From positions 2,651,218 through 2,715,217 of the forward strand of contig NZ_CP073695.1 in NCBI RefSeq assembly GCF_018228765.1: a stretch of DNA of 64,000 nucleotides, read 5' to 3'. Below the pieces are notes generated by a model. The model saw only the letters and a program-made list of their open reading frames with translations. It made no database searches and had not been told where the DNA came from. The DNA is from Halorubrum ruber (lineage in GTDB: Archaea > Halobacteriota > Halobacteria > Halobacteriales > Haloferacaceae). The position numbers and the translations under genes are program-made. Positions within the stretch are counted from its first letter, which is position 1. Each line of letters begins with the position of its first letter. Positions 16,342-41,925 of this stretch are shown here, piece after piece.

Positions 16342-16449
16342 TTGCCGGAGATAGGCGGGCGACGCGGTAAAGCTTTGTTCGTCGGCGGGCGCAGAGTACG
16401 TTTCGAGAGTGTAGTCAGTGGGGAGTGCTTTCTACACGCTCGTCGCCCG

Positions 16450-16906
16450 CTTATAAATGGCTGCTGCTGGATCGGTGGGGAACACCTCCAAAGCCCCAGC
16501 CGTTTACGTATCAAGGATTGCTGGCAGATTGGCGGCGAACACCGCCAAAGCCCCAGCCGCTCGGTTATACGTGGTCGATTGTGAACCGGCGCCGAACGCC
16601 CTCAAAGCCCCAGCCGCGAGGGCTCGGGGGCCTCGTTGCGCTCCTCGTCGCTCGCTTCGCTCGCTCCTGCGGTGCTTACTTCGGCCGCCTTCGCCCTCGC
16701 GGCTGCCCCTTTGAGTCCCACCCCGCACCGCTCCGCACAGCACCTCACGCCTCCCCAGCCTCGTCGGCCTCCCTGCGGTCGGCCGACTCCCTCGCGCGTG
16801 CTGTCGCCGGCGCTTCGCGCCGGCTTCCAGAGGGACCTTCGGTCCCTCGCGGCTCGGCCGCAAGGCGGCCTCGCAGGCACGCGCCACCGCGAAACAGGTA
16901 TAAATC
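16450..16906 (-). repeat. Structured intergenic repeat, copy C
   Basis: Reverse-oriented copy between srp54 and the DICT gene. On the minus strand it begins with a GATTTATACC box, then GGTGGCGCGTGCCTGCGAG and the GGCCGC hairpin. Two additional perfect hairpins (around 16801-16855) are inserted before the CACGCGCGAGGGAG block. The long helix has diverged and keeps only the GCGAGGGC/GCCCTCGC part. Three tail units of about 57 bases follow, each with GGCTGGGGCTTTG and a TATA-like or degenerate AT box. No gene is visible inside. Confidence 0.83.
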
Positions 16907-23423: not shown

Positions 23424-23574
23424 TAGTCCCGGGCGGATTCGAACCGCCGTCAATGGCTGACTTCGGGTATCCGACGGGCGTTCTTACCGGAACGCCCAAC
23501 AACCGCGTTTGAGTCGCAGACGCGGACGGATTCCCTCCAAAGGCCATTATGATTGGCCACTACACCACGGGACT
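23424..23574 (-). tRNA. tRNA-Gln (anticodon UUG) with a 78-base intron
   Basis: The reverse strand folds as a tRNA: acceptor arms AGTCCCG and CGGGACT, T-arm GCGGTTCGAATCCGC, and anticodon stem ATGGC/GCCAT around loop CTTTGGA with anticodon TTG at 23538-23540. The loop is interrupted after position 37 by an intron at 23459-23536. Around the splice sites a four-base-pair central helix (CTTT with GAAG) is flanked by three-base bulges GGA and TCA, the archaeal bulge-helix-bulge recognised by the splicing endonuclease. The mature tRNA is 73 bases; CCA is not encoded. Confidence 0.93.
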
Positions 23575-23644: not shown

Positions 23645-24235
23645 CTACGCCCCCTCCTCGATCCGGTCGTACCGCTCCTCGAAGTTCTCCCGGCAGGAGC
23701 CGCAACAGAAGTGGTACAGCGTCCCGTCGATCCGGGCCGACTCCCCCTCGGCGGTGACCGTGTTGCCGCACTCGACGCAGTCGACCGCGAGGTCCGCGTC
23801 CCCGACCGCGGGCGACCACTCGTGGGCGTCGAGCGGGCGCACCGACAGCTCGGTTACGCTCTCTAACCCGACCGCCTCGTCGACGAGGTCGCGGGCGGTC
23901 CCCTCCTCGACGCGCGCGGCGACCGTCACCTCGCCGTCCGCGGTGAGGAACGCGTGCTCGACGCGCTCGTGGGCCGCGACCGCCTCGTGGACGCGCTCGG
24001 CGTCCGCGGGGTCGACGGCGAGCGTCGCGAGGACCCGCAGCCCGTCGGAGAGCGCGTCGCCGTCGATCTGGAGCGTGAACCCCTCGATCACGCCCACCTC
24101 GCGGAGCCGGTCCACGCGGTCGGACACCGCGGGCGCCGACAGGTCCACCCGCTCGGCGATATCGCTGTACGGCCGCCGCGCGTCGGCCAGCAGCAGCCGG
24201 ATGATCTCTCGGTCCGTCTCGTCGAGCGTGCGCAT
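23645..24235 (-). CDS. Lrp/AsnC-type regulator with C-terminal TRASH metal-binding domain
   Basis: A 196-residue regulator. Residues 1-60 are an AsnC-type winged helix (LDETDREIIRLLLADARRPY, SAPAVSDRVDRLREVGVI), the middle is an Lrp-like ligand domain, and the C-terminus is a TRASH domain with CVECGNTV and FCCGSCRENFEERY that binds soft metals. This architecture matches haloarchaeal copper-responsive regulators of copper efflux. A TATA-like CTTTTGCC box 28 bases upstream supports the ATG at 24235. It is divergent from a CopZ-like gene, the expected target. Confidence 0.9.
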   Translation of the reverse strand: MRTLDETDREIIRLLLADARRPYSDIAERVDLSAPAVSDRVDRLREVGVIEGFTLQIDGDALSDGLRVLATLAVDPADAERVHEAVAAHERVEHAFLTADGEVTVAARVEEGTARDLVDEAVGLESVTELSVRPLDAHEWSPAVGDADLAVDCVECGNTVTAEGESARIDGTLYHFCCGSCRENFEERYDRIEEGA

Positions 24236-24362
24236 GACCGGGCGTTCGACCGGCGCGGGCAAAAGCAGTCCGGCGATCGAAGGACGCGAAAACGATCCCG
24301 AGAACCGGTCGCCCACGGGGGCGACGGAAAGGCAGTTGTGCCCGCGGCGCAAACCGGCGCGC

Positions 24363-24557
24363 ATGACGACGATAGACGTCGACGGCATGTCGTGTACTGG
24401 CTGCGAGGACAACGTGACCGACGCGCTCGGCGAGCTGCCGGGCGTCGAGTCCGCGAGCGCCGACCACGAGGCGGGCACCGCGACCGTCGAGGGCGACGTC
24501 GACGTCGACGCGGTCGTGGCCGCCATCGAGGAGGCCGGCTACGAAGCGTCCGCGTAA
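24363..24557 (+). CDS. Heavy-metal-associated (CopZ-like) copper chaperone
   Basis: A 64-residue single HMA domain with the metal-binding motif GMSCTGCEDNV near the N-terminus and a ferredoxin-like beta-alpha-beta pattern ending EEAGYEASA. Such proteins shuttle Cu(I) to P-type ATPases. It faces the TRASH-domain regulator across a 127-base divergent promoter. No copper ATPase is in the window, which is unusual for this pair; the pump may lie elsewhere on the genome. Confidence 0.92.
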   Translation: MTTIDVDGMSCTGCEDNVTDALGELPGVESASADHEAGTATVEGDVDVDAVVAAIEEAGYEASA

Positions 24558-24600: not shown

Positions 24601-25491
24601 ATGGACACGGTACTGATCACCGGAAGCGCCGGCGGCGTCGGCGCGTGGACCGTCGACGCGCTCTCCGACGCGGGCCGCGAGGTGGTCGCCGTCGACCGCG
24701 AAACGCCGCCGACGGACGACCGCCGAGACGACGTCGACTACGTGGCGGCGGACCTCACCGACTACGGCGAGACGCGCCAGGTGGTCGACGCCGCCGCGCC
24801 CGACGCGGTCGTCCACCTCGCCGCGATCCCGCACCCAGAGGACCACGCCGGCTCGCGGGTGTTCGCGAACAACGTCGAGAGCGCGTACAACGTCTTCGAC
24901 GCGGCCGGCGCCGCTGGCGCCCGCATCGTTTGGGCGTCGAGCGAGAGCCTCTACGGCACCGTCTTCGCCGAAGACGACTGGCTCCCCGACAGCCTCCCGA
25001 TCGACGAGGAGACGCCGACCGAACCCGAGGACCCGTACGGGCTCTCGAAGGTCGTCGGCGAGGAGGTCGCGGCCGCCGCCGCCCGCCGGCACGGCGTCCC
25101 CGCAGTCTCGCTGCGCCTCTCGTGGGTCACGCTCCCGGGCGACGAGCGGCGCCGCGAGGCCCGGGAGACGTTCGACCCCGCGACCGCGGAGCCGAGCGGC
25201 AACTGCTGGTCCTCCGTCGACGTGCGCGATGTCGTCTCCGCGATCGAGGCCGCGATCGACCCCGAGACCGAGGTCGACGGCCACGAGGCGGTGCTGATCG
25301 TCTCTGCGGAGAATTTCCTCGGCCGCGACACCGCCGCGACGATCGAGGCGGTTCACGGCGACCGCCCCGCCGACTGCGACCTCGACGGCGACGAGTCCGT
25401 CTTCGACTGCTCGAAGGCGAAGCGGCTGCTCGGGTGGGAGCCGGCACACTCGTGGCGCGACGAGGTCGAAACGGACGGCGAGAGCGACTAA
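24601..25491 (+). CDS. NAD-dependent epimerase/dehydratase (extended SDR)
   Basis: A 296-residue extended short-chain dehydrogenase. The N-terminal ITGSAGGVGAWTVDAL is the NAD-binding glycine motif; DPYGLSKVVGEEVA holds the catalytic Tyr and Lys, and SSESLYGTVF the preceding Ser. It resembles haloarchaeal sugar-nucleotide or sugar dehydrogenase-like SDRs, including the group of NAD-dependent glucose-6-phosphate dehydrogenase, but substrate residues cannot be assigned. A CCTTTTCC box about 25 bases upstream of the ATG suggests its own promoter. Confidence 0.88.
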   Translation: MDTVLITGSAGGVGAWTVDALSDAGREVVAVDRETPPTDDRRDDVDYVAADLTDYGETRQVVDAAAPDAVVHLAAIPHPEDHAGSRVFANNVESAYNVFDAAGAAGARIVWASSESLYGTVFAEDDWLPDSLPIDEETPTEPEDPYGLSKVVGEEVAAAAARRHGVPAVSLRLSWVTLPGDERRREARETFDPATAEPSGNCWSSVDVRDVVSAIEAAIDPETEVDGHEAVLIVSAENFLGRDTAATIEAVHGDRPADCDLDGDESVFDCSKAKRLLGWEPAHSWRDEVETDGESD

Positions 25492-25524: not shown

Positions 25525-26859
25525 TCAGACCTCCTCGTCCCGTTCGTCCGAGTCCTCCGCGTCGGCGTCGGTCGGACGTGAGTCCGTGTCCCAGACGTCC
25601 CCTTCGTTCGGTACGTCGACATCGGGGGCGTCGAGGTCGGCGGCGTCGACCCCGCGGTCCGGCGAGTCGCCGTCCTCGGCGGGAGCCGAGGGGCTCGCGG
25701 CCGAGTCCGGACTCGCCGCCGCCGTCGGGCCGGGGTCCGCGTCGGTGACCGCATCGGCGTCGGCGGGGCCCTCTCCGTCCCCCTCGACCGCCGGCGCGGG
25801 CGGGCGGTAGGTGTAGACGAACTCGCCGGAGACGGCGTGGAACGCGCCGGTCTCGGGGTCCTCCACGACGCCGGTGTCGTTGTCGATCGCGAAGTCGACG
25901 AGGTCCCGCAGCGACCCCGCTTCGGCGGTCGGCCGCTCGTGGACCGACGCCGGGAGCCGGAACGTCGTGATCCACTCGGCGAACTCCGAGCGGTCGTCGC
26001 GGTAGGAGAGGTACTCCCGCTCCGCGTCGGTGAGCGCGAGGTCGTACTCCCGCGTCGCGTACCCGATCCCGCCGGCGCCGACGAGGCCGACGAGCAGGAG
26101 GAGCGGCCCGCCGAACGAGCGGAGCACGCCGTACTCCCGCTCCACGGTCATCTGCTCGGTCCGCTCAGTCGTGTCGGACTGGACGCCGGGCTCGTCGACG
26201 GAGTACGTGTCGCCGCCGTGGGTGATCGTCATGTCGAGCGTCTGCGTCGACGCCGTCGGGACGCCGCCGATCGACCCGTCGACGGCCACGTCGGTCGTGA
26301 CGAACGTCTCCGTCTCGCCGGGCGAGGCGCCGAGCTCCTCCTCGATCGACGCCACCCGCCCGTCTATCGCGGTGCTGTTGAGCGCGAACGAGGCGTTCAC
26401 CGTCTCGCCGGGCGAGACGCCGGAGACGGTCTCCGACGCGAGCGGCTCCGTCTCGCGCCAGTAGACGGTCCCCTCCTCGCCGACGTTGCGGATCACGAGC
26501 GTGGAGCCGACCTCGACGGTGACGTTCTCGGCGGTCGACGCCGCGTAGCTCGTCGCCACGTCCACGTCGAGCTCCGGCGCGATCCGCGTGAAGTACGTGT
26601 CGCGCCCGTCGAGCTCCGTGCCGGTCTCGAAGACGGCGTTCGGCTCCGTCACCGTCGCGCTGTGGCGGTACTCGCTCTCGACGGTGAGAGACGAAACCGT
26701 CCGGCTCTCCGTCTCCGTGCCGGGGTCGACGTGCGTCGTGTACGCGAGCCCCGCCCCGACCGCGACGAGGAGGAGACAGACGACGAGGATCGCGGTGGAC
26801 TGTGCGTTCAGGACGGCGCGGAGCCGGAGTCGACGTTCGTTGGGAGCGTCTTCGGACAT
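25525..26859 (-). CDS. DUF5305-type membrane protein of a surface-protein cluster
   Basis: A 444-residue protein: an N-terminal transmembrane helix after an Arg-rich start, an extracellular beta-rich region of about 220 residues, a second helix (FGGPLLLLVGLVGAGGIGY), a cytoplasmic domain, and an acidic Pro/Ala/Asp-rich tail. This layout matches haloarchaeal DUF5305 proteins, which regularly sit next to type I signal peptidases and SipW-type exported proteins. Its start lies three bases after the signal peptidase stop, indicating one operon. A role in handling or anchoring the exported partner proteins is inference. Confidence 0.8.
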   Translation of the reverse strand: MSEDAPNERRLRLRAVLNAQSTAILVVCLLLVAVGAGLAYTTHVDPGTETESRTVSSLTVESEYRHSATVTEPNAVFETGTELDGRDTYFTRIAPELDVDVATSYAASTAENVTVEVGSTLVIRNVGEEGTVYWRETEPLASETVSGVSPGETVNASFALNSTAIDGRVASIEEELGASPGETETFVTTDVAVDGSIGGVPTASTQTLDMTITHGGDTYSVDEPGVQSDTTERTEQMTVEREYGVLRSFGGPLLLLVGLVGAGGIGYATREYDLALTDAEREYLSYRDDRSEFAEWITTFRLPASVHERPTAEAGSLRDLVDFAIDNDTGVVEDPETGAFHAVSGEFVYTYRPPAPAVEGDGEGPADADAVTDADPGPTAAASPDSAASPSAPAEDGDSPDRGVDAADLDAPDVDVPNEGDVWDTDSRPTDADAEDSDERDEEV

Positions 26860-26862
26860 GTG

Positions 26863-28026
26863 TTACCTGTAGAACTCGCGGAGGAGTCGCTTGTAGAGCG
26901 GGGGGCGCTCCCGGGAGCCGCGCGACCGGATCCGGGCGGGCTCGCCGCGCAACAGCAGCAGCCCGATCGAGACGATTCCGCCGCCGAGCAGGCCGTTTAT
27001 CGCGACGAGCGGCGCCCACGGGTGGACCCCGTACAGCTCGTCGACGATGCCGGGCGGCAGCACGGCGAGGTAGCGGTGTTCGACGACGAACAGGCGGTAG
27101 TACCCCGTCTCGTCGGGCGCCGACAGCGTCACCGTCGTCGACGCCTCGCCGCGACTGCCGACCGAGAGCCGCTGCGGGTCGACGTCGACACCCGGGCTCG
27201 CCGGCGTGACGTACGCGTACACGGGGACCAGCCCGGCGTTGGGGACGACGTACTCGAGCTCCTGGCTCGTGCCGCTCTCGATGACGGTCGGGTTCTCCGA
27301 CTCGAACTCGGCGCTCACGACGCCGTACTCCTGTGTCCCGGCGGGGACGACCATCGCGGCCGTCGCGGTGGCCATCAACACGAGCGCCAGCACGCCGAGG
27401 ATCGCGAACACAGAGGTGCCATCGTCGCGCGACCGGTCCCGGGAGTCGCGGTCGCGCGTGCCGGCGTTGAGGTACCAGTCGACCGCGTAGGCGACGACCG
27501 ACAGCCCGAAGACGATGTACGCGAGCCCCTGCGTCCCCTGGAACGAGCGGACGCCGAACGTCACCGCGAGCCACGTCTGGACGGACTGGAGCGCGGACTG
27601 GAACCCCATCGCGACGGTGCCCAAGTGCGGTATCACGACGACGCCGCCGCCGACCTGAAGCGCCTTCGCGACGATGTCGGCGTCTTGGACGATCGGTTCA
27701 CCCCCGTCCTGGTCGGTGAAGGGGTTGTTGTCGCCGCGGGTGACGTACCCGCGCTCGGTCTCCTCGACGACGCGGTGGGTCGTCAGGCCGCCGCCCTGGA
27801 TCTCTTGGGCGTCGAACGTCACGACGTCTCCCGGGCCGATCCCGCCCGCGATCTGCGCGGGGATCGCCACGAACCCGTCGCCGGGGGAGAGCGTCGGCTG
27901 CATGCTCCCGGTCTCGACGTAGCTGAGGAGTATCGGCTGTCCGAGGAACTGGCCGACGACGAGCGAGACGACGACCAGCACCGCGGCCGCCTGAAGGGCC
28001 ACGGACAGCGTTCGTTTGATGGACAT
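26863..28026 (-). CDS. Archaeal type I signal peptidase (SipW/Sec11-like) with C-terminal extension
   Basis: A 387-residue protein. Residues 1 to about 165 form an ER/archaeal-type signal peptidase: membrane helix, catalytic Ser in VETGSMQPTL (about residue 41), PGDVVTF, the catalytic His in LTTHRVVEE replacing the bacterial Lys, and RGDNNPFTD. The second half contains more helices and a beta-rich exterior segment (SVGSRGEASTTVTLSAP), an extension seen in haloarchaeal SipW-like enzymes. With DUF5305 immediately downstream and DUF1102 substrates about 4 kb away, it is probably the dedicated peptidase of this cluster. Confidence 0.88.
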   Translation of the reverse strand: MSIKRTLSVALQAAAVLVVVSLVVGQFLGQPILLSYVETGSMQPTLSPGDGFVAIPAQIAGGIGPGDVVTFDAQEIQGGGLTTHRVVEETERGYVTRGDNNPFTDQDGGEPIVQDADIVAKALQVGGGVVVIPHLGTVAMGFQSALQSVQTWLAVTFGVRSFQGTQGLAYIVFGLSVVAYAVDWYLNAGTRDRDSRDRSRDDGTSVFAILGVLALVLMATATAAMVVPAGTQEYGVVSAEFESENPTVIESGTSQELEYVVPNAGLVPVYAYVTPASPGVDVDPQRLSVGSRGEASTTVTLSAPDETGYYRLFVVEHRYLAVLPPGIVDELYGVHPWAPLVAINGLLGGGIVSIGLLLLRGEPARIRSRGSRERPPLYKRLLREFYR

Positions 28027-28229
28027 GGTGTCGGTCTCTGGTCGGGGGCAGTCTCGGATCGAAGGCGGTCTCGGCGCAGCGGCGATCTCGGGGCGCCGGC
28101 GATCTCGGGGCGGCTCCCGCCGCGAAGCGGTTCCTGTCGTCAGAGCGTCAGGTAGCCGTCGATCGCTGAACGGCGGCGTGTCCTAATAAGTTCGTGGGTG
28201 GAGGCGAGTCCGGACGGTTGCGGACGGCC

Positions 28230-29174
28230 TTATTCGTCGAAGACGCCGCCCGCAAGCAGCGCGAACGGGCCGATGAAGCCCAGACAGAACCCGAGCAGGT
28301 GGACGTAGAGGTTCACGACGCTGTCGGCGCCCGCGGGGTCGGACGGGAACCCGACGACGGGGTAGCCGACGGCGACCGCCGCACCGACGGCGAGTAGGTC
28401 ACCGTAGCCGGGGCGCGAGGCGATCGACTTCGCGTGCGCCCGGAGCGACCGCGGGAGCCGCACCCCGCTGCTGGCCGCGTACAGCAGCGCGAGGAGCGCG
28501 CCCGCGACGCCGATCGACAGCCCCGCCAGCCCGATTCCCTCCGTCGAGACGGGCAGCGCGAGGAGCGCGATCCACCCGACGAGCGCGAAGAAGACCGCCG
28601 GTAGCGCGGCGACGGAGGCCCCGGGCGCGAACTGCTCGCGGGCGTAGTAGTACCACACGATGGGAAGCAGGCCGGCCAGCGCCATGTTGACCCCGGAGAA
28701 GCCGAAGCCGATCGCGTTCCGCGGGACCGCGAGGTTCAGCGCGGACAGCGCGAAGGGGAAGGCTGCGAGGTAGGTGACGAACGCCGTGAAGAAGAGGCGC
28801 CGGCGCCCGCTCAGGACCGCGAGCGCGTAGTCGGTCCCGGCGAGCAGCCCGTACCCGGCGAGGTTCCCGAGCAGGTGGTCGGCGCCGAGGTGGACGTAGT
28901 GCGCCGTGAACGCCGACAGCAGCGTGGGGTCGGTGTACGCGAACGCGAGCGACCGGCGGGTCACTCGGGGGAGCGCGAACACGGCGACGAGGACTGTCGG
29001 CGGGAGGCAGAGCGCGACGAGGTCGATGAGGCGAGTGCGGGCGGACAGCTCGTCGAGGAACGCCGCGTACCCCGACCGACCGCGCGCGTCGCGGTCGCGG
29101 ACGGCACCGTCGCTCCCGTCTCTGCCCGGGGCCGAACGGTCAGTCTCCGACGAGAGGTCGCTCACGGGAATCAC
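28230..29174 (-). CDS. Rhomboid-like intramembrane serine protease
   Basis: A 314-residue membrane protein. After a polar leader of about 45 residues come roughly seven hydrophobic segments. The early loop HYVHLGADHLLGNLAG holds the conserved rhomboid His and Asn, GFGFSGVNMALAG holds the GxSG catalytic Ser, and VHLLGFCLGF near the C-terminus carries the catalytic His. All key residues are therefore present. It sits between the signal peptidase and a large surface protein on the same strand and could process cluster proteins. Confidence 0.85.
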   Translation of the reverse strand: MIPVSDLSSETDRSAPGRDGSDGAVRDRDARGRSGYAAFLDELSARTRLIDLVALCLPPTVLVAVFALPRVTRRSLAFAYTDPTLLSAFTAHYVHLGADHLLGNLAGYGLLAGTDYALAVLSGRRRLFFTAFVTYLAAFPFALSALNLAVPRNAIGFGFSGVNMALAGLLPIVWYYYAREQFAPGASVAALPAVFFALVGWIALLALPVSTEGIGLAGLSIGVAGALLALLYAASSGVRLPRSLRAHAKSIASRPGYGDLLAVGAAVAVGYPVVGFPSDPAGADSVVNLYVHLLGFCLGFIGPFALLAGGVFDE

Positions 29175-29262
29175 TTCCGCGACGCTCGGTTAATCTCTGT
29201 GGTCCCGGGATCCAACGGCGATACCCGTCGACCGGCGTCCGCGCCACCGACGCGAGCGGGTG

Positions 29263-30816
29263 TCACGACCGCGGCATCCGCCGCACGAGCGCGACGCTCG
29301 CCAAGGCGATGACGAGGAACACGGCGAGTCCGACGAGGTTCGACGGGCCGATCCCGCTCGGCTCCTCGGTGGGCGGATCGGACGCGTCGCCGTCGGGCGC
29401 CGCCGTGCCGCCGTCGTCCGTTCCTCCCTCGACAGACGCGGTGTCGTCCTCGTCGCCGTCACCGGCCGGGTCGCCGACCGCGAGCGTCCCCGCCGAGGCG
29501 TCGTCGACCGCGATGTCGTACTCGCCGGGGTCGTCGAACGCCGGTTCGAACGCGACGGCCGCGCTCTCTCCGGGGTCGAGTTCGACCCGCTGCGTCGCGA
29601 GCGGCTCGCCGTCCGCGGTGAGCGTCACGTCGCGCGCGCCGTCGTCGCGCCCCTCGTTCGCGACCGTTGCGCGGACGACGGCCGACTCGCCGGCGTCGAC
29701 GGCCTCGCGGTCGAGCGAGGCGTCGGTCGCGCGGATGCGGGCCCGGTCGGTCGCCACGGCGAACACCGAGAACTCGTCGGTCGACGCCGTGACGTGGACC
29801 CGGTCCTCGGGCAGGTCGAGCAGGCGGCGGACGGCCGGGTCGACGCGCTCCGTCTCCAGCCGTTCCCAGCCGCCGGGCGCCGACTCGGACCGGCGGTACA
29901 GCGAGATGTCGTCGGGGTCGCCGCCCGTCTCGTTGAGGTAGTCGCGGTCGACGCTCATAGAGAACCGGACGCGAGACACCTCATCGCCGGCGAACGAGTG
30001 GTCGAACTCGAAGTAGCCGTTCGGCGCCGCGCCCCGGGTGTCGTTCAGCGGCCCCGCCGACGGGAACGGGTCCGGTCGCCCGACCGTCTCGAAGTTGACG
30101 TCGCGGCCGTTCTCGCTCGTGATCCGCACGCGGTCGAGGGTGACGTCGCCACCTGCGATCTCCATCGCGCCCGCGTCGAACGTGACGCCGTCGCCCGGAG
30201 AGAGCTCGCGGCCCTCGAACTCTCGGCGGTCGGGCTCGGGGCGACGAACGGTCGTCGCGGCGCCGCCGTCGGCGTCCTCCTCCTCGCCGTCCGCGTTCGA
30301 CGACATCGACTCCGGTTCCGCGACCTCGGCGCGGATGTCGAAGTCGTCCCCGCCCAGCTGCGTGCCGGCGACGGCGCCGCGCGCGTCCACTTCGAGCCCG
30401 ATCGCGACCGTCTCGTCGGGACCGAGCGTGACATTGTTCGCCTCGCCCTCGATCGACTCGCCGTCGGCGACGAAGGTGACGTTCTCCTCGGGGTGTTCGA
30501 TCCACACGCGGGCGTACTCGTCGGCGCTGTAGGTGATCGTGAACACGCCCTCGGCCGAGGCGAGGGTTCCCGGGTTGACCCCCTCGAAGTCGCTCGGGAG
30601 CTTCGGGTTCGACCCCGAGACGTCGACGACGATCTCGTCGTCGTCGTTCAGGTACGCGTAGGCGCCGTTGGGGCCGTCCACGGGGTGAACGGCGAGGCGC
30701 TCCTCCGCGAACGTGTCCCCCGGCCCGTCGACCACCGCTGCCCCCGTCGCGAAGGCGAGGCCTCCCGCGGCGGCGACGAGGACAGCGAGGAGGAGGGTCC
30801 GGCGGACGGTGGACAT
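29263..30816 (-). CDS. Large secreted surface protein with CARDB-like and PGF-pre-PGF-like domains
   Basis: A 517-residue protein with a Sec-type signal peptide (RRTLLLAVLVAAAGGLAFATGAA). The N-terminal beta-rich region resembles DUF1102, the middle segment (YFEFDHSFAGDEVSRVRFSM, LDLPEDRVHVTAS, EFSVFAVATD) resembles a PGF-pre-PGF domain, and a CARDB-like repeat follows (RATVANEGRDDGARDVTLTA). A Gly/Asp/Thr-rich stalk leads to a single C-terminal membrane helix and RRMPRS tail. It is probably a cell-surface protein anchored by its C-terminus. Confidence 0.78.
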   Translation of the reverse strand: MSTVRRTLLLAVLVAAAGGLAFATGAAVVDGPGDTFAEERLAVHPVDGPNGAYAYLNDDDEIVVDVSGSNPKLPSDFEGVNPGTLASAEGVFTITYSADEYARVWIEHPEENVTFVADGESIEGEANNVTLGPDETVAIGLEVDARGAVAGTQLGGDDFDIRAEVAEPESMSSNADGEEEDADGGAATTVRRPEPDRREFEGRELSPGDGVTFDAGAMEIAGGDVTLDRVRITSENGRDVNFETVGRPDPFPSAGPLNDTRGAAPNGYFEFDHSFAGDEVSRVRFSMSVDRDYLNETGGDPDDISLYRRSESAPGGWERLETERVDPAVRRLLDLPEDRVHVTASTDEFSVFAVATDRARIRATDASLDREAVDAGESAVVRATVANEGRDDGARDVTLTADGEPLATQRVELDPGESAAVAFEPAFDDPGEYDIAVDDASAGTLAVGDPAGDGDEDDTASVEGGTDDGGTAAPDGDASDPPTEEPSGIGPSNLVGLAVFLVIALASVALVRRMPRS

Positions 30817-31137
30817 GTATATCGGGTCGACCCTTGCGGCCGGAAGCCCTTGGTTATGCGGTGCTTGAAGTTCCGAAGGGGTTCGTCAACGTGTCCGAGA
30901 GCCGCGCGGGACCGCGGAGTCACCGCCCCAAAAAGTGATTCGGAATGTGATAATTTCATATATCGAATCGCGATCAAATAGGTTGTTCGTCAGTTGAGAT
31001 GCCGAAGGAATCACTCAAACCCCGCAGAACAGGCGTATCAGGCCCATTCGCGGAGACGATCGTGAACGCAAATAAACGTTGTCGAGTTATCACAACCTGT
31101 GGTTTTATGTTGGTGTGTTCATATTTGTCTGACGTAA
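30817..31137. other. Divergent intergenic promoter region of the surface cluster
   Basis: A 321-base gap between the reverse-strand surface protein and the forward DUF7344 gene. It is distinctly AT-rich compared with its flanks, with runs such as TGATAATTTCATATATCG around 30947-30966 and GGTTTTATGTTGG shortly before the DUF7344 start, giving candidate TATA boxes for both directions. No gene or RNA structure is evident. Confidence 0.5.
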
Positions 31138-31725
31138 ATGGCGTCGGCACAGCAGATCGAGACGGGAGGGGCAGAGCCGGCGGCGGAGATCTCCGAAGAC
31201 GATCTGTTCGACGTTCTGGCCAACCAGCGGCGGCGGTTCGCGGTACACCTGCTGAAACGCGAGCCGGACGACGCGGTCGAGATCGGCGAGATGGCGGAGC
31301 AGATCGCGGCCTGGGAGAACGGGATCGACACCGCCGAGATATCGAGCAGCGAGCGGAAGCGAGTGTACACGGCGCTCCAGCAGTCGCACCTGCCGAAGAT
31401 GGACGACGCGGGGGTCGTGGAGTTCAACAAGGCGCGCGGTGTCGTCGAGCCGACGCCGGCGCTGACGGACGTGGACGTCTACCTCGACGTCGTGGAGGGC
31501 CGAGAGATACCGTGGAGCGAGTACTACCTCGGGCTCTCCGGCGTCGCCGCCGCGCTCGTCTCGGCGGTGTGGATCGGGGTGTGGCCGTTCACGCTCCTCC
31601 CCGAGATGGCGTGGACGCTGGCTATCGTCGTCGCGTTCGCGTTCTCGGCGCTGGCGCACAAGTACTACACCGCGGAGATGGAGGTCGGCCGCGGCGAGGA
31701 GCCGCCCGAAGTGGGCGGCGAGTGA
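31138..31725 (+). CDS. DUF7344 winged-helix membrane protein
   Basis: A 195-residue protein. Residues 20 to about 105 match the haloarchaeal DUF7344 winged helix: DLFDVLANQRRRFAVHLLK, EIGEMAEQIAAWENG, SSERKRVYTALQQSHLPKMD. Two hydrophobic helices follow near the C-terminus (GVAAALVSAVWIGVWPF and TLAIVVAFAFSAL). Membrane-tethered helix-turn-helix proteins of this type often sit beside exported-protein genes and are presumed regulators. It lies just upstream of the first DUF1102 gene. Confidence 0.82.
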   Translation: MASAQQIETGGAEPAAEISEDDLFDVLANQRRRFAVHLLKREPDDAVEIGEMAEQIAAWENGIDTAEISSSERKRVYTALQQSHLPKMDDAGVVEFNKARGVVEPTPALTDVDVYLDVVEGREIPWSEYYLGLSGVAAALVSAVWIGVWPFTLLPEMAWTLAIVVAFAFSALAHKYYTAEMEVGRGEEPPEVGGE

Positions 31726-31788
31726 GCGACCGGGGATCGGATCGGAGCGCGGGCGGACAGGGAGTCGGGGTCGGCGGCGAGAACGGGG

Positions 31789-31850
31789 TTCAGGCCGATG
31801 TCACTGAGGTTCAGGCCGATGTCACGGGCGTTCAAGCCGAGCGATACCCG
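31789..31850 (+). repeat. Short tandem repeat upstream of the first DUF1102 gene
   Basis: Two exact copies of GTTCAGGCCGATGTCAC in 21-base units and a partial third (GTTCAAGCCGA) lie between the DUF7344 stop and the DUF1102 start, just before a CTCATAACCTTAAG promoter-like segment. The position and phasing of two helical turns suggest operator sites, but this is inference. Confidence 0.55.
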
Positions 31851-31925
31851 CTTCCGATGGCTCATAACCTTAAGTGCGCGACACGTGTTGTCACCCAGTA
31901 AGCGAGTGTCGGACCCACGCACACC

Positions 31926-32729
31926 ATGAAACGACGCAACCTCATCCTCCTGCTCGGCGGCGGCGGATCGGCGGCGCTGAGCACCGGGACCGGCGCGTTC
32001 AGCAGCATGGAGGCTGAGCGGGGCGTGGAAGTGAACGTCGTCGACGACGATGTGGCGTACGTGGGGTACAGCGAGTCGGACAAAACGATCCCGTCGGACC
32101 TGAAAAACGACGGGGCTCTTCACCTGGTCACGATCACGAACCGTTTCTCGGAGAAAATTCGTATCACGGATGTCTCGATCGACGACGACGACACGGGAGT
32201 GGTAGCGGACGTGTCGTACGACCCCGTAATCGAGACCGGGCACGCAGAGGACATCGTCGGTCACGTCGAGGGACTCGCACCTGACGACAGCGTCGATGTC
32301 GAGATTACGGTGACCGTCGAGGGCACGGGAGTCACGGCGCAGCTGTTCGGCGATACGGAGACGCGACGGTTCACGATCGAACGGAGCGACCAGGATGTCG
32401 TTCCCGTCGACAGGGAAGTGGAGTACTTCGGCAACGGTAACGCGGAGATCCTCCGAGACAACGAGAACCTGAGCGTCGATGTCTACCTCTTCGACAAGAA
32501 TCCGGGCCAAGGCGACGAGATTGTGACGAAGAACGTGAAGATTGACACAGATAAGAACCTTAGAGGCCAGTTGTCCGGAGCCGGTGGTGACCGGATCATC
32601 GGCGTCACTCTCAACGGCACCACCTACGTCCATCCGCAGTGGAACTCAGGGACCTGTAGCTTCGAAAAGCCGAACAACGGTGGCTTCGGTGTACCCTCTG
32701 ATAGCGCCCCTAGTTGCGGCTCCGAGTAG
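31926..32729 (+). CDS. DUF1102 exported protein with SipW-type signal peptide (1 of 2)
   Basis: A 267-residue exported protein. The N-terminus MKRRNLILLLGGGGS followed by STGTGAFSSMEAERG fits the SipW-dependent signal peptide pattern (charged start, Gly-rich core, TGTGAFS before the cleavage region). The mature part is beta-rich and acidic like DUF1102 proteins: VNVVDDDVAYVGY, HLVTITNRFSEKIRITDVSI. Two Cys near the C-terminus (GTCSF and SCGSE) may form a disulfide. It is the first of two related exported proteins, likely substrates of the clustered signal peptidase; similarity to TasA/camelysin-type fibre subunits is by architecture only. Confidence 0.82.
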   Translation: MKRRNLILLLGGGGSAALSTGTGAFSSMEAERGVEVNVVDDDVAYVGYSESDKTIPSDLKNDGALHLVTITNRFSEKIRITDVSIDDDDTGVVADVSYDPVIETGHAEDIVGHVEGLAPDDSVDVEITVTVEGTGVTAQLFGDTETRRFTIERSDQDVVPVDREVEYFGNGNAEILRDNENLSVDVYLFDKNPGQGDEIVTKNVKIDTDKNLRGQLSGAGGDRIIGVTLNGTTYVHPQWNSGTCSFEKPNNGGFGVPSDSAPSCGSE

Positions 32730-33075
32730 CTGACAGCTTTTGCGGTTCGGAGGTGTCTGTTCTATCGGAGCGAATTCAGCCGGTACCGAGCAGCGAGTAG
32801 TAATATAGTCTATTTCACACATGGGTTCTGAGATCACGAGCGTCGAACTGGTTTTGGGGCCAGATTTGGACTCGAAGGGGCGGCATGAATCGTGTTCAGG
32901 CGGTCTCATCTGCGTTTCAGACTCGAACGGAAAGGCATCTGTCGCCTACGGAAGATCTTCTGCTGACTCATAACGATATGGGATACACTCCATGGGTGTA
33001 GTAGAGCGACCCGGGGTGACACGGGATGTCTCGTGTCCCCGGCGGGTCGTGTGCGGTAACAGAGGTAGACAACCC
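32730..33075 (+). other. Intergenic region with promoter-like motif before the second DUF1102 gene
   Basis: A 346-base gap without a gene. It is less GC-rich than most of the window. A GACTCATAACGATATGG segment near 32966-32982 closely resembles the GGCTCATAACCTTAAG segment upstream of the first DUF1102 gene, suggesting a shared promoter or operator. A strong hairpin follows closer to the start codon. Confidence 0.5.
33011..33042 (+). promoter_or_regulatory. Inverted repeat in the leader of the second DUF1102 gene
   Basis: CCGGGG and CCCCGG flank ACACG and CGTGT around a short loop, giving an eleven-base-pair stem with a small two-base bulge. It ends 33 bases before the ATG at 33076. It could be an operator, an mRNA leader hairpin or a terminator for upstream transcription; the sequence does not decide. 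Confidence 0.5.
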
Positions 33076-33645
33076 ATGGAACGACGCAAATTTGTGGTCG
33101 GGCTGGGCGCATTGGCAACTGGAAGCGCGGCGGCGACGGGAACGGGCGCGTTCTCACAGGCAAGCGCATCACGTGGTGTGAGCGTTTCAGTCGTCTCGGA
33201 CAATAGTGCGTTCGCGACGCTGCTTGCGAATGATTCAGGCCTAGAGAACTCGGAGTACGCCGAACAGCAGAACGGTAAACTCGAGTTACGGTTTAATGAG
33301 AATGCGGATGTAAACAGTGGTGGCTTCCTTTCCGATGGGACGGGCCTCAGCACTGACTCGGAGTACTTCTTTGACAACGTGTTCGGATACGGCTCGCGGA
33401 TCGGCGACAGTGTGACGGCCGAGATCGACTGGAGTGGACTCGATAACCCAGAACACTTCGTATTCTACGATATACCCCAGCAGGGTCGACCAACTGAGGT
33501 CAACCCTGACGGGGACTACACTGAGGGATTCCCCGGTACCGGTAGCGGCTCGTACGTCGGAGTCGGAGTTGGTATAGATACGACCGGAGCCGACCTTGGA
33601 AGCGAATGGGAGACCGGAACGGTTGAAATCACGTTCGAGAACTAA
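33076..33645 (+). CDS. DUF1102 exported protein with SipW-type signal peptide (2 of 2)
   Basis: A 189-residue exported protein starting MERRKFVVGLGALATG followed by ATGTGAFSQASASRG, the same TGTGAFS signal pattern as its neighbour. The mature region (VSVVSDNSAFATLLAND, LELRFNENADVNSGG, FFDNVFGYGSRIGDSVTAEI, FVFYDIPQQG) is typical DUF1102, beta-rich and without Cys. Composition is noticeably less GC-rich than the surrounding genes. It is probably a paralogue co-regulated with the upstream copy and exported by the cluster peptidase. Confidence 0.82.
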   Translation: MERRKFVVGLGALATGSAAATGTGAFSQASASRGVSVSVVSDNSAFATLLANDSGLENSEYAEQQNGKLELRFNENADVNSGGFLSDGTGLSTDSEYFFDNVFGYGSRIGDSVTAEIDWSGLDNPEHFVFYDIPQQGRPTEVNPDGDYTEGFPGTGSGSYVGVGVGIDTTGADLGSEWETGTVEITFEN

Positions 33646-41434: not shown

Positions 41435-41925
41435 TGCGGTGGCGCGTGCCTGCGAGGCCGCCCCGCGGCCGAGCAGCACGCGCGAGGGACGCGGCGAACG
41501 CGAGCGGCGTAGCCGCGAAGCGTGAGCCGCGAGGCTGGGGAGGCGTGAGGCGCCGTGCGGAGCGGTGCGGGGTGGGACTCAAAGGGGCAGCCGTGAGGGC
41601 GTCGTAGGCGACGTAAGTAGCGTGGCGCTACGCGCCACGAAAAGCCGGCGGCGGAGCCGCCGGCGACACCGCAGGGAGCGAACGGAGTGAGCGACCGAGG
41701 AGCACAGCGAGCGTACGACGCCCTCACGGCTGGGGCTTTGGAGGAATTCGCCGCCGATCCGCTAGCAGTCATTTATAAACGAGCGGCTGGGTATTTGGCG
41801 GTGTTCGCCGCCAATCCACTGACAGTCATTTATAAACAGGCGGCTGGGGCTTTAGAGGAGTTCGCCGCCGATCCGTTAGCAGTCATTTATAAACGAACGC
41901 CTCGCGCCTCTGCGAGCATTTATAA
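41435..41925 (+). repeat. Structured intergenic repeat, copy F (longest tail)
   Basis: The most complete copy. Core blocks as in other copies, with long helix arms GTGAGGGCGTCGTA and TACGACGCCCTCAC. Two extra perfect hairpins (arms CGTGGCGC/GCGCCACG and GCCGGCGGC/GCCGCCGGC) are inserted within the loop at about 41618-41667. The tail has ATTTATAA boxes at 41771, 41828 and 41885, exactly 57 bases apart, then one at 41918, 33 bases later. The final box contains the TAA stop of the gene at 41920. Confidence 0.87.

Follow-up and report, generated by a model that had tools for sequence, protein, structure and literature searches.

The described surface fiber closest to the locus examined here is the Tafi (Tat-fimbria; Tat, twin-arginine translocation) pilus, which has appeared in print (iScience 2025, 28, 111793) and is represented in the PDB by entry 9p0a, titled 'Structure of Natrinema sp. 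J7-2 Tafi pilus'. In the part of PMC9674648 that we consulted, donor-strand assembly is described as published for TasA and is stated for archaeal fibers, including a TasA-like one. With regard to rhomboid proteases, the consulted part of PMC3237569 describes adjacency as a sign of dedicated rhombosortase pairs, and that of PMC11985538 reports motility, adhesion and shape phenotypes for Haloferax rhomboid mutants, with natural substrates given as unknown; in the portions consulted of the literature on rhombosortase with archaea or haloarchaea, no such archaeal pair was found. We analyzed a 64-kb stretch of Halorubrum ruber DNA (hereafter, the window) from a genome of 3.02 Mb in one contig. Between positions 25525 and 33645, the original prediction, made from the sequence, had proposed a TasA-like fiber or surface-filament export cluster, with genes for a DUF5305 protein, a signal peptidase, a rhomboid and a CARDB protein on one strand and those for a DUF7344 regulator and two proteins with GTGAFS signal peptides (here termed protA and protB) divergent from them. 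All seven open reading frames were confirmed at the noted positions and strands (Table 1). The fiber interpretation was supported by homology to 9p0a, by locus layout and by co-occurrence, and we conclude that the locus very probably encodes a Tafi-type pilus of a Halorubrum species. Tafi-type pilus locus is thus a better name than SipW-TasA-like, and its counterpart has already been published.

We compared protB with solved structures at the levels of sequence, profile and predicted fold. A profile built from 81 homologues had one strong match in the PDB, chain C of 9p0a (E = 5.5e-32), and a single-sequence phmmer search recovered 9p0a at 6e-9. A Foldseek search with the AlphaFold model of protB ranked 9p0a first (E = 2.1e-6), followed by the bundling pilus of Pyrobaculum (7ueg; 1.6e-4) and the 0406 filament of Sulfolobus (7pnb; 2.5e-3). 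VIA-align gave Z scores of 9.3 for 7ueg (133 residues, 4.5 Å), 9.2 for 9p0a (141 residues, 3.8 Å) and 7.7 for 7pnb, the next row being an unrelated protein at 7.3; the identity between protB and 9p0a was 21% in the structural alignment. TasA chains were absent among the matches listed for the protB and protA models. The proposed likeness to bundling pili is borne out at the level of predicted fold by the match to 7ueg, whereas membership in SipW is not (see below). Furthermore, the first strand of the protB model begins at residue 47, and residues 9–26 have a predicted local distance difference test (pLDDT) score below 50; these features of the model are compatible with an N-terminal strand donated to the neighboring subunit. 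In 9p0a, 188 of 215 residues are modelled, a length that would fit a mature start at the F of GTGA-FSS if all other residues are modelled.

The same relationship was evident at the level of the locus. Over 172 residues, 9p0a shares 92% sequence identity with the pilin of locus L148, a locus that consists of a DUF7344 gene facing a pilin, a CARDB-type anchor, a signal peptidase and a DUF5305 gene. In profile–profile comparisons, protB matched Natrinema-type pilins (2.4e-31), TafE (1.3e-22), protA (2e-18) and TafA (8.3e-16); the CARDB protein (hereafter, the anchor) matched Natrinema-type anchors (E = 5.9e-38) and TafF (6.3e-17); and protA matched the N-terminal part of TafC (E = 1.8e-14). Where TafA exceeds its cut-off, the locus encodes all four Taf proteins (TafA, TafC, TafE and TafF) along with a signal peptidase, a DUF7344 protein and a DUF5305 protein of the kinds seen in the window. 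We rejected the possibility that the window holds the TafA locus itself, because no TafA exceeded the cut-off in its genome (G000) and because a signal-peptidase tree, which was midpoint-rooted and had weak deeper forks, placed the TafA-type loci L131–L134, L104, L106 and L115 in one group (100/99) apart from the window clade. The congeners G013 and G081 carry both a window-type and a TafA-type locus, the latter on a second replicon in G081. TafC proteins at L131:10043-11182 and L106:6687-7973 have a C-terminal, lectin-like Laminin_G_3 domain, which suggests a tip adhesin. Plasmid pHrrPV6 of Halorubrum sp. PV6 has annotated genes including signal peptidase I and a rhomboid protease; in plasmid searches, the 9p0a stretch found no match and the signal peptidase found 12 records, every one below 60% identity.

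Gene neighborhoods were surveyed in the best 80 of 264 related stretches from a named genome collection, and genes within 8 kb were counted for the 63 of these loci that have 6 kb or more on each flank. Near the signal peptidase, DUF5305 was found in 61 loci, DUF7344 in 59, protA-like and protB-like genes in 58 each, a CARDB-type anchor in 47 and a rhomboid in 39. One or more pilin-like genes were present in 61 of the 63, in line with the anticipated co-occurrence of DUF1102 genes with the peptidase. Another 80 loci, overlapping in part with the first set, taken mostly in rank order from the listed signal-peptidase matches and also the source of our profiles, gave 68 for DUF5305, 62 for DUF7344 and 74 for any pilin-like gene; some species are shared between the sets. 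Because of these counts, we consider the arrangement to lie beyond chance. Most often, protA shares its strand with DUF7344, and the opposite strand carries between one and four copies of protB followed by the anchor, rhomboid, signal peptidase and DUF5305. The window and some close relatives depart from this order in that protB comes after protA. The other three signal-peptidase places in the same genome had no pilin-like gene or DUF5305 nearby, and DUF7344 was present at one. Within the family, 96 of 119 genomes had a homologue of the signal peptidase, and within the genus the protB-family profile had matches in 51 of 52 genomes. A further full-length member of this pilin family (197 residues) is encoded at G000:C1:716139-716732 (L142:9139-9732, minus strand) between two DUF7344 genes; no signal peptidase was detected in a 19-kb stretch containing it, and it may use that of the window in trans. 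Congeners also contain arrays of many adjacent pilin-family matches (G190:C16:63-14266 and G233:C26:77035-87657), which are possible donors for pilin exchange.

The peptidase of the window had been described as SipW/Sec11-type with all catalytic residues. The Sec11 part of this description stands: the protein exceeds the threshold of the model for archaeal signal peptidase I (55.3 versus 51.85 bits), its best PDB matches by profile are SEC11 chains, and S41, H84, D99 and D105 are invariant among 26 homologues. Its identity as SipW was rejected (31 bits versus a cut-off of 190). The signal peptidase of Halorubrum distributum JCM 10118 is 98% identical to it, and DUF5305 is present as a single copy in the genome. 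The signal peptides of protA and protB are weakly hydrophobic, carry an RR pair and end in GTGA-F. All 81 protB homologues have R3, R4, A25 and R33, and nearly all have D42; in 35 homologues of protA, R4 is invariant and R3 occurs in at least 90%. Judged by the Tat consensus, the signal peptides of both subunits are of twin-arginine type from their sequences, and three TatC matches were found in the genome.

From these features we infer the following export route, cleavage site, strand exchange, polymerization and roles of the anchor and the rhomboid. DUF7344 would regulate the locus. With their RR...GTGAFS signal peptides, protB, the candidate repeating subunit, and protA, which occupies the TafC position and is perhaps a tip or adaptor, would probably be exported via Tat. 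Cleavage after GTGA would be carried out by the dedicated signal peptidase together with its membrane partner, DUF5305, and might free an N-terminal strand that completes the beta-sandwich of the next subunit. The CARDB/TafF-like protein could hold the fiber base through its pilin-like domain and C-terminal transmembrane tail, and the rhomboid of this variant may cut or transfer that tail.

The anchor had been predicted to be a CARDB/PGF-type surface protein. It has a hydrophobic N-terminal signal, a CARDB match (26.1 bits) and a DUF1102 match that scored 21.6 bits in the protein scan and, when the genome was searched, exceeded the cut-off with 24.4 bits. Both GTGAFS proteins had likewise been assigned to DUF1102; protB matches this family (28.9 bits; cut-off, 22.2), protA has no Pfam match, and the DUF1102-like N-terminal domain of the anchor therefore brings the pilin-like proteins in the window to three. 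The domain set of the anchor suits a putative base subunit of a fiber. PGF/archaeosortase anchoring was rejected: the tail reads EEPSGIG and lacks PGF, and the PGF_pre_PGF match (20.5) was below its cut-off of 28. The adjoining rhomboid, the only copy of its kind in the genome (E ≤ 0.001), scores below the Pfam cut-off (15.9 versus 22.6 bits), yet has the motifs and hydrophobic segments of a rhomboid protease (Table 1), as had been proposed. It also falls short of the rhombosortase model TIGR03902 (18.1 versus 84 bits), as does another rhomboid of the same kind (16.8). The window nevertheless shows a rhombosortase-like arrangement, in which a neighboring secreted protein with a tripartite tail accompanies a rhomboid with a predicted active site.

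In most rhomboid-bearing loci, the C-terminus of the anchor carries E-[P/L]-x-G-[F/I] followed by a hydrophobic helix, and its end is basic. We collected 99 distinct tails and excluded 15 without a hydrophobic tail (3 with and 12 without a rhomboid); among the hydrophobic-tailed anchors, the motif was present in 56 of the 61 that are accompanied by a rhomboid and in 6 of the 23 that are not. The regular expression for the tail had been composed after inspection of the tails, and it was retested unchanged on new loci, leaving out L258, L265 and L266 as already seen. The rhomboid search yielded a match in 72 of 145 genomes of the class. Of 22 new loci with a rhomboid of this kind, 15 had a transmembrane-tailed neighbor and 11 matched the motif (one of them, L260, being more PGF-like), compared with 0/15 for both at loci of generic rhomboids. 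At the new rhomboid-bearing locus L257, the anchor scored 172 bits against the TafF model (cut-off, 420). The same rhomboid kind also lies beside secreted proteins of 550, 2179 and 2176 residues with EP[F/G]GF-type tails at L249, L256 and L259, respectively, where there is no signal-peptidase/pilin cluster. Because these pairs occur outside fiber loci, the rhomboid/tail pairing is wider than fibers.

The pilins differ from the remainder of the cluster in their divergence. Third-position guanine-plus-cytosine (GC) content was 0.92–0.95 in the five machinery genes, 0.78 in protA and 0.62 in protB. For 533 locus pairs with signal peptidases at least 80% identical, we compared the identity of each protein with that of the signal peptidase. 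The correlation was strong for DUF5305 (Spearman, 0.83), whereas mature protA remained at a median identity of 0.33–0.34 per identity band (Spearman, –0.01) and mature protB at 0.30–0.34 (Spearman, 0.17). Between the window and L151, whose signal peptidases are 98% identical, a DNA alignment of about 92% identity stops at 32069, within protA and behind the signal peptide; the blocks shared with L039 and L040 stop at 32069 and 32070. Past this position, identity to L151 was 0.30–0.57 per 30 bases, whereas L151 and L039 shared mostly 0.77–0.97 (first 30 bases, 0.30), though L151 is otherwise nearer the window. In protB, the same drop behind the signal peptide was observed against L151 and L040, and 89% DNA identity to L039 was kept throughout. 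Because of these drops and the low third-position GC content of the pilins, the sequences favor pilin replacement by recombination over mere fast drift. This uncoupling of pilins from machinery points to strong diversifying pressure on the fiber surface. Both the rhomboid/tail pairing and the pilin exchange go beyond the Tafi system as known to us from a citing passage and the title of its PDB entry. We tentatively raise the possibility, in itself rather doubtful, that a haloarchaeal rhomboid subfamily is sortase-like, with its own signal (E-P-x-G-[FI], transmembrane helix and basic end), and processes a TafF-like anchor, thereby deciding fiber retention, and that strains at the same time exchange their mature pilins through recombination directly after the conserved signal peptide, so that a fixed machine would present a changing fiber surface, perhaps under pressure from viruses.

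Several results weigh against a Tafi-type pilus built from protB. All window proteins scored below the NCBIfam equivalog cut-offs for TafA, TafC, TafE and TafF, the best scores being 31.5, 35.6 and 36.4 bits for TafA, TafC and TafE (cut-offs 190, 410 and 155), and the genome has no TafA over its cut-off, as noted above. The quality of the protB model is intermediate (pLDDT, 71.7; predicted template modelling score, 0.64). That of protA (pLDDT, 78.2) has two immunoglobulin (Ig)-like domains and matched pilus chaperone N-domains (Z up to 9.1) and also MSP domains (8.6); it appears to be a generic Ig/PapD-type arrangement and not specifically pilin-like, unlike the model of protB, for which 9p0a, 7ueg and 7pnb were the best solved matches. 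The tie of protA to the fiber proteins is through its profile, and it might conceivably act as a chaperone. Signal-peptidase loci without pilin-like genes amount to 2 of 63 and 6 of 80 in the two sets. Finally, the pilin profile matches the orphan pilin near 716 kb (E = 2.7e-49) slightly more strongly than it does protB (1.5e-47), and the major fiber subunit may lie outside the window. The system could thus be correctly identified and the subunit mistaken, with protB being a minor, TafE-like adaptor and another pilin, such as this full-length orphan with no signal peptidase detected in its 19-kb surroundings, forming the fiber. The best Taf model for protB is indeed TafE, annotated as an adapter; however, the solved subunit 9p0a, in the stretch tested, is itself more TafE-like than TafA-like (74.3 versus 54.8 bits) and its near-identical homologue sits within a cluster (L148), so that we regard this explanation as unlikely. 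Because 9p0a, in the stretch tested, is also under the Taf cut-offs, the structural name covers more than these models do. It is far less probable still that the pilin-like proteins are non-polymerizing surface antigens exported by a signal peptidase and DUF5305 that form just a secretion unit. Beta-sandwich folds are common, and the protA model resembles PapD-type and MSP domains equally, but the top Foldseek rows of protB by E-value are three solved archaeal filaments, and the layout of the locus is that of the gene for the solved fiber subunit.

A stronger alternative concerns the rhomboid. It might be unconnected to the anchor, being a protease of the cell surface that lies in the same operon through common descent. 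The tail motif occurs in six loci lacking the rhomboid, the anchors of the rhomboid-bearing L250, L254 and L255 have no transmembrane tail, those of L252 and L262 are near misses to the motif, the rhombosortase model is missed, and the samples are related by descent. The out-of-sample contrast with generic rhomboids and the pairs outside fiber loci argue in the other direction. We accordingly treat an unconnected rhomboid as a serious possibility, somewhat short of probable.

Table 1. Positions of the cluster genes and their sub-features in the window
Feature	Position	Strand	Evidence or remarks
DUF5305 membrane protein, 444 aa, putative signal-peptidase partner	25525..26859	-	PF17231, 187 bits (cut-off 29)
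Archaeal/Sec11-type signal peptidase, 387 aa	26863..28026	-	TIGR02228 over cut-off; long C-terminal part between two further hydrophobic segments
Rhomboid intramembrane protease, 314 aa, candidate processor of anchor tail	28230..29174	-	GFSG at 158, C-terminal H at 292, seven hydrophobic segments
TafF-like anchor (CARDB protein), 517 aa	29263..30816	-	Signal peptide, DUF1102-like pilin domain, CARDB, C-terminal transmembrane tail
Anchor C-terminal transmembrane segment, residues 493-511, then RRMPRS	29284..29340	-	Hydrophobicity scan
EEPSGIG motif preceding that segment, residues 484-490	29347..29367	-	Tail sequence
DUF7344 winged-helix-type regulator, 195 aa	31138..31725	+	PF24035, 106.5 bits (cut-off 27.8); two C-terminal hydrophobic segments
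protA, TafC-position GTGAFS protein, 267 aa	31926..32729	+	Two Ig-like domains in model; profile matches to TafC and protB
protA conserved 5' block (signal peptide and first mature residues)	31926..32069	+	Homology to relatives collapses beyond
protB conserved upstream and signal-peptide block, then divergent mature part	32955..33166	+	DNA comparison with relatives
protB, candidate fiber subunit, DUF1102/TafE-like pilin, 189 aa	33076..33645	+	DUF1102, 28.9 bits; 9p0a profile and fold matches

For protB, the ATG at 33076 was preferred as the start over 32992. Beside the cluster, positions 23645-24526 encode an apparent Lrp/AsnC-like helix-turn-helix regulator with a TRASH-like Cys motif (by eye), and 24601-25491 an NAD-dependent sugar epimerase-type protein (Pfam Epimerase, 119 bits); these neighbors are possibly linked to surface glycosylation. 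At 23424-23574 on the minus strand, Rfam reports a tRNA over 151 bases and ARAGORN none there; the tRNA probably contains an intron. A dispersed repeat of approximately 200-450 bases occurs in both orientations in the window at 9.28-9.62, 14.61-14.90, 16.44-16.89, 37.25-37.51, 41.43-41.90 and 58.77-59.08 kb, including 57-base tandem units at 16444-16616 and 41727-41902. It is also present in the relatives L151, L039, L040 and L041, and had no Rfam match at the gathering threshold.

These results place a common, unnamed gene set on a fiber system with a solved structure, give DUF5305, DUF7344, DUF1102 and the rhomboid subfamily testable roles, and name a candidate archaeal rhomboid-dependent sorting signal. 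Compared with the rhombosortase/GlyGly-CTERM system, the locus similarly has a rhomboid adjoining a protein with a motif, a transmembrane helix and a basic end; however, its rhomboid is far under the model cut-off, its motif is E-P-x-G-[FI], and it is archaeal. The TapA-SipW-TasA system of Bacillus likewise has a dedicated signal peptidase adjoining small beta-rich secreted proteins, whereas the window fails the SipW model, its signals are Tat-type and those of Bacillus Sec-type, and it adds DUF5305, DUF7344, the anchor and the rhomboid. The bundling pili of Pyrobaculum calidifontis (7ueg) and the 0406/thread filament of Sulfolobus (7pnb), compared by fold alone, resemble the predicted fold of protB. 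The tafi locus of Haloarcula (tafA, tafC, tafE and tafF) has the same parts list, including the signal peptidase, DUF7344 and DUF5305, although the window has no TafA over the cut-off and its protA lacks the Laminin_G_3 domain of TafC. In comparison with the Tafi pilus of Natrinema sp. J7-2 and locus L148, the window has an extra rhomboid, an E-P-x-G-I tail on a longer anchor, and a protB that lies on the DUF7344 strand and is distant from 9p0a (21%), but the two share a homologous subunit, a Tat-like GTGAF signal peptide and the order of the locus.

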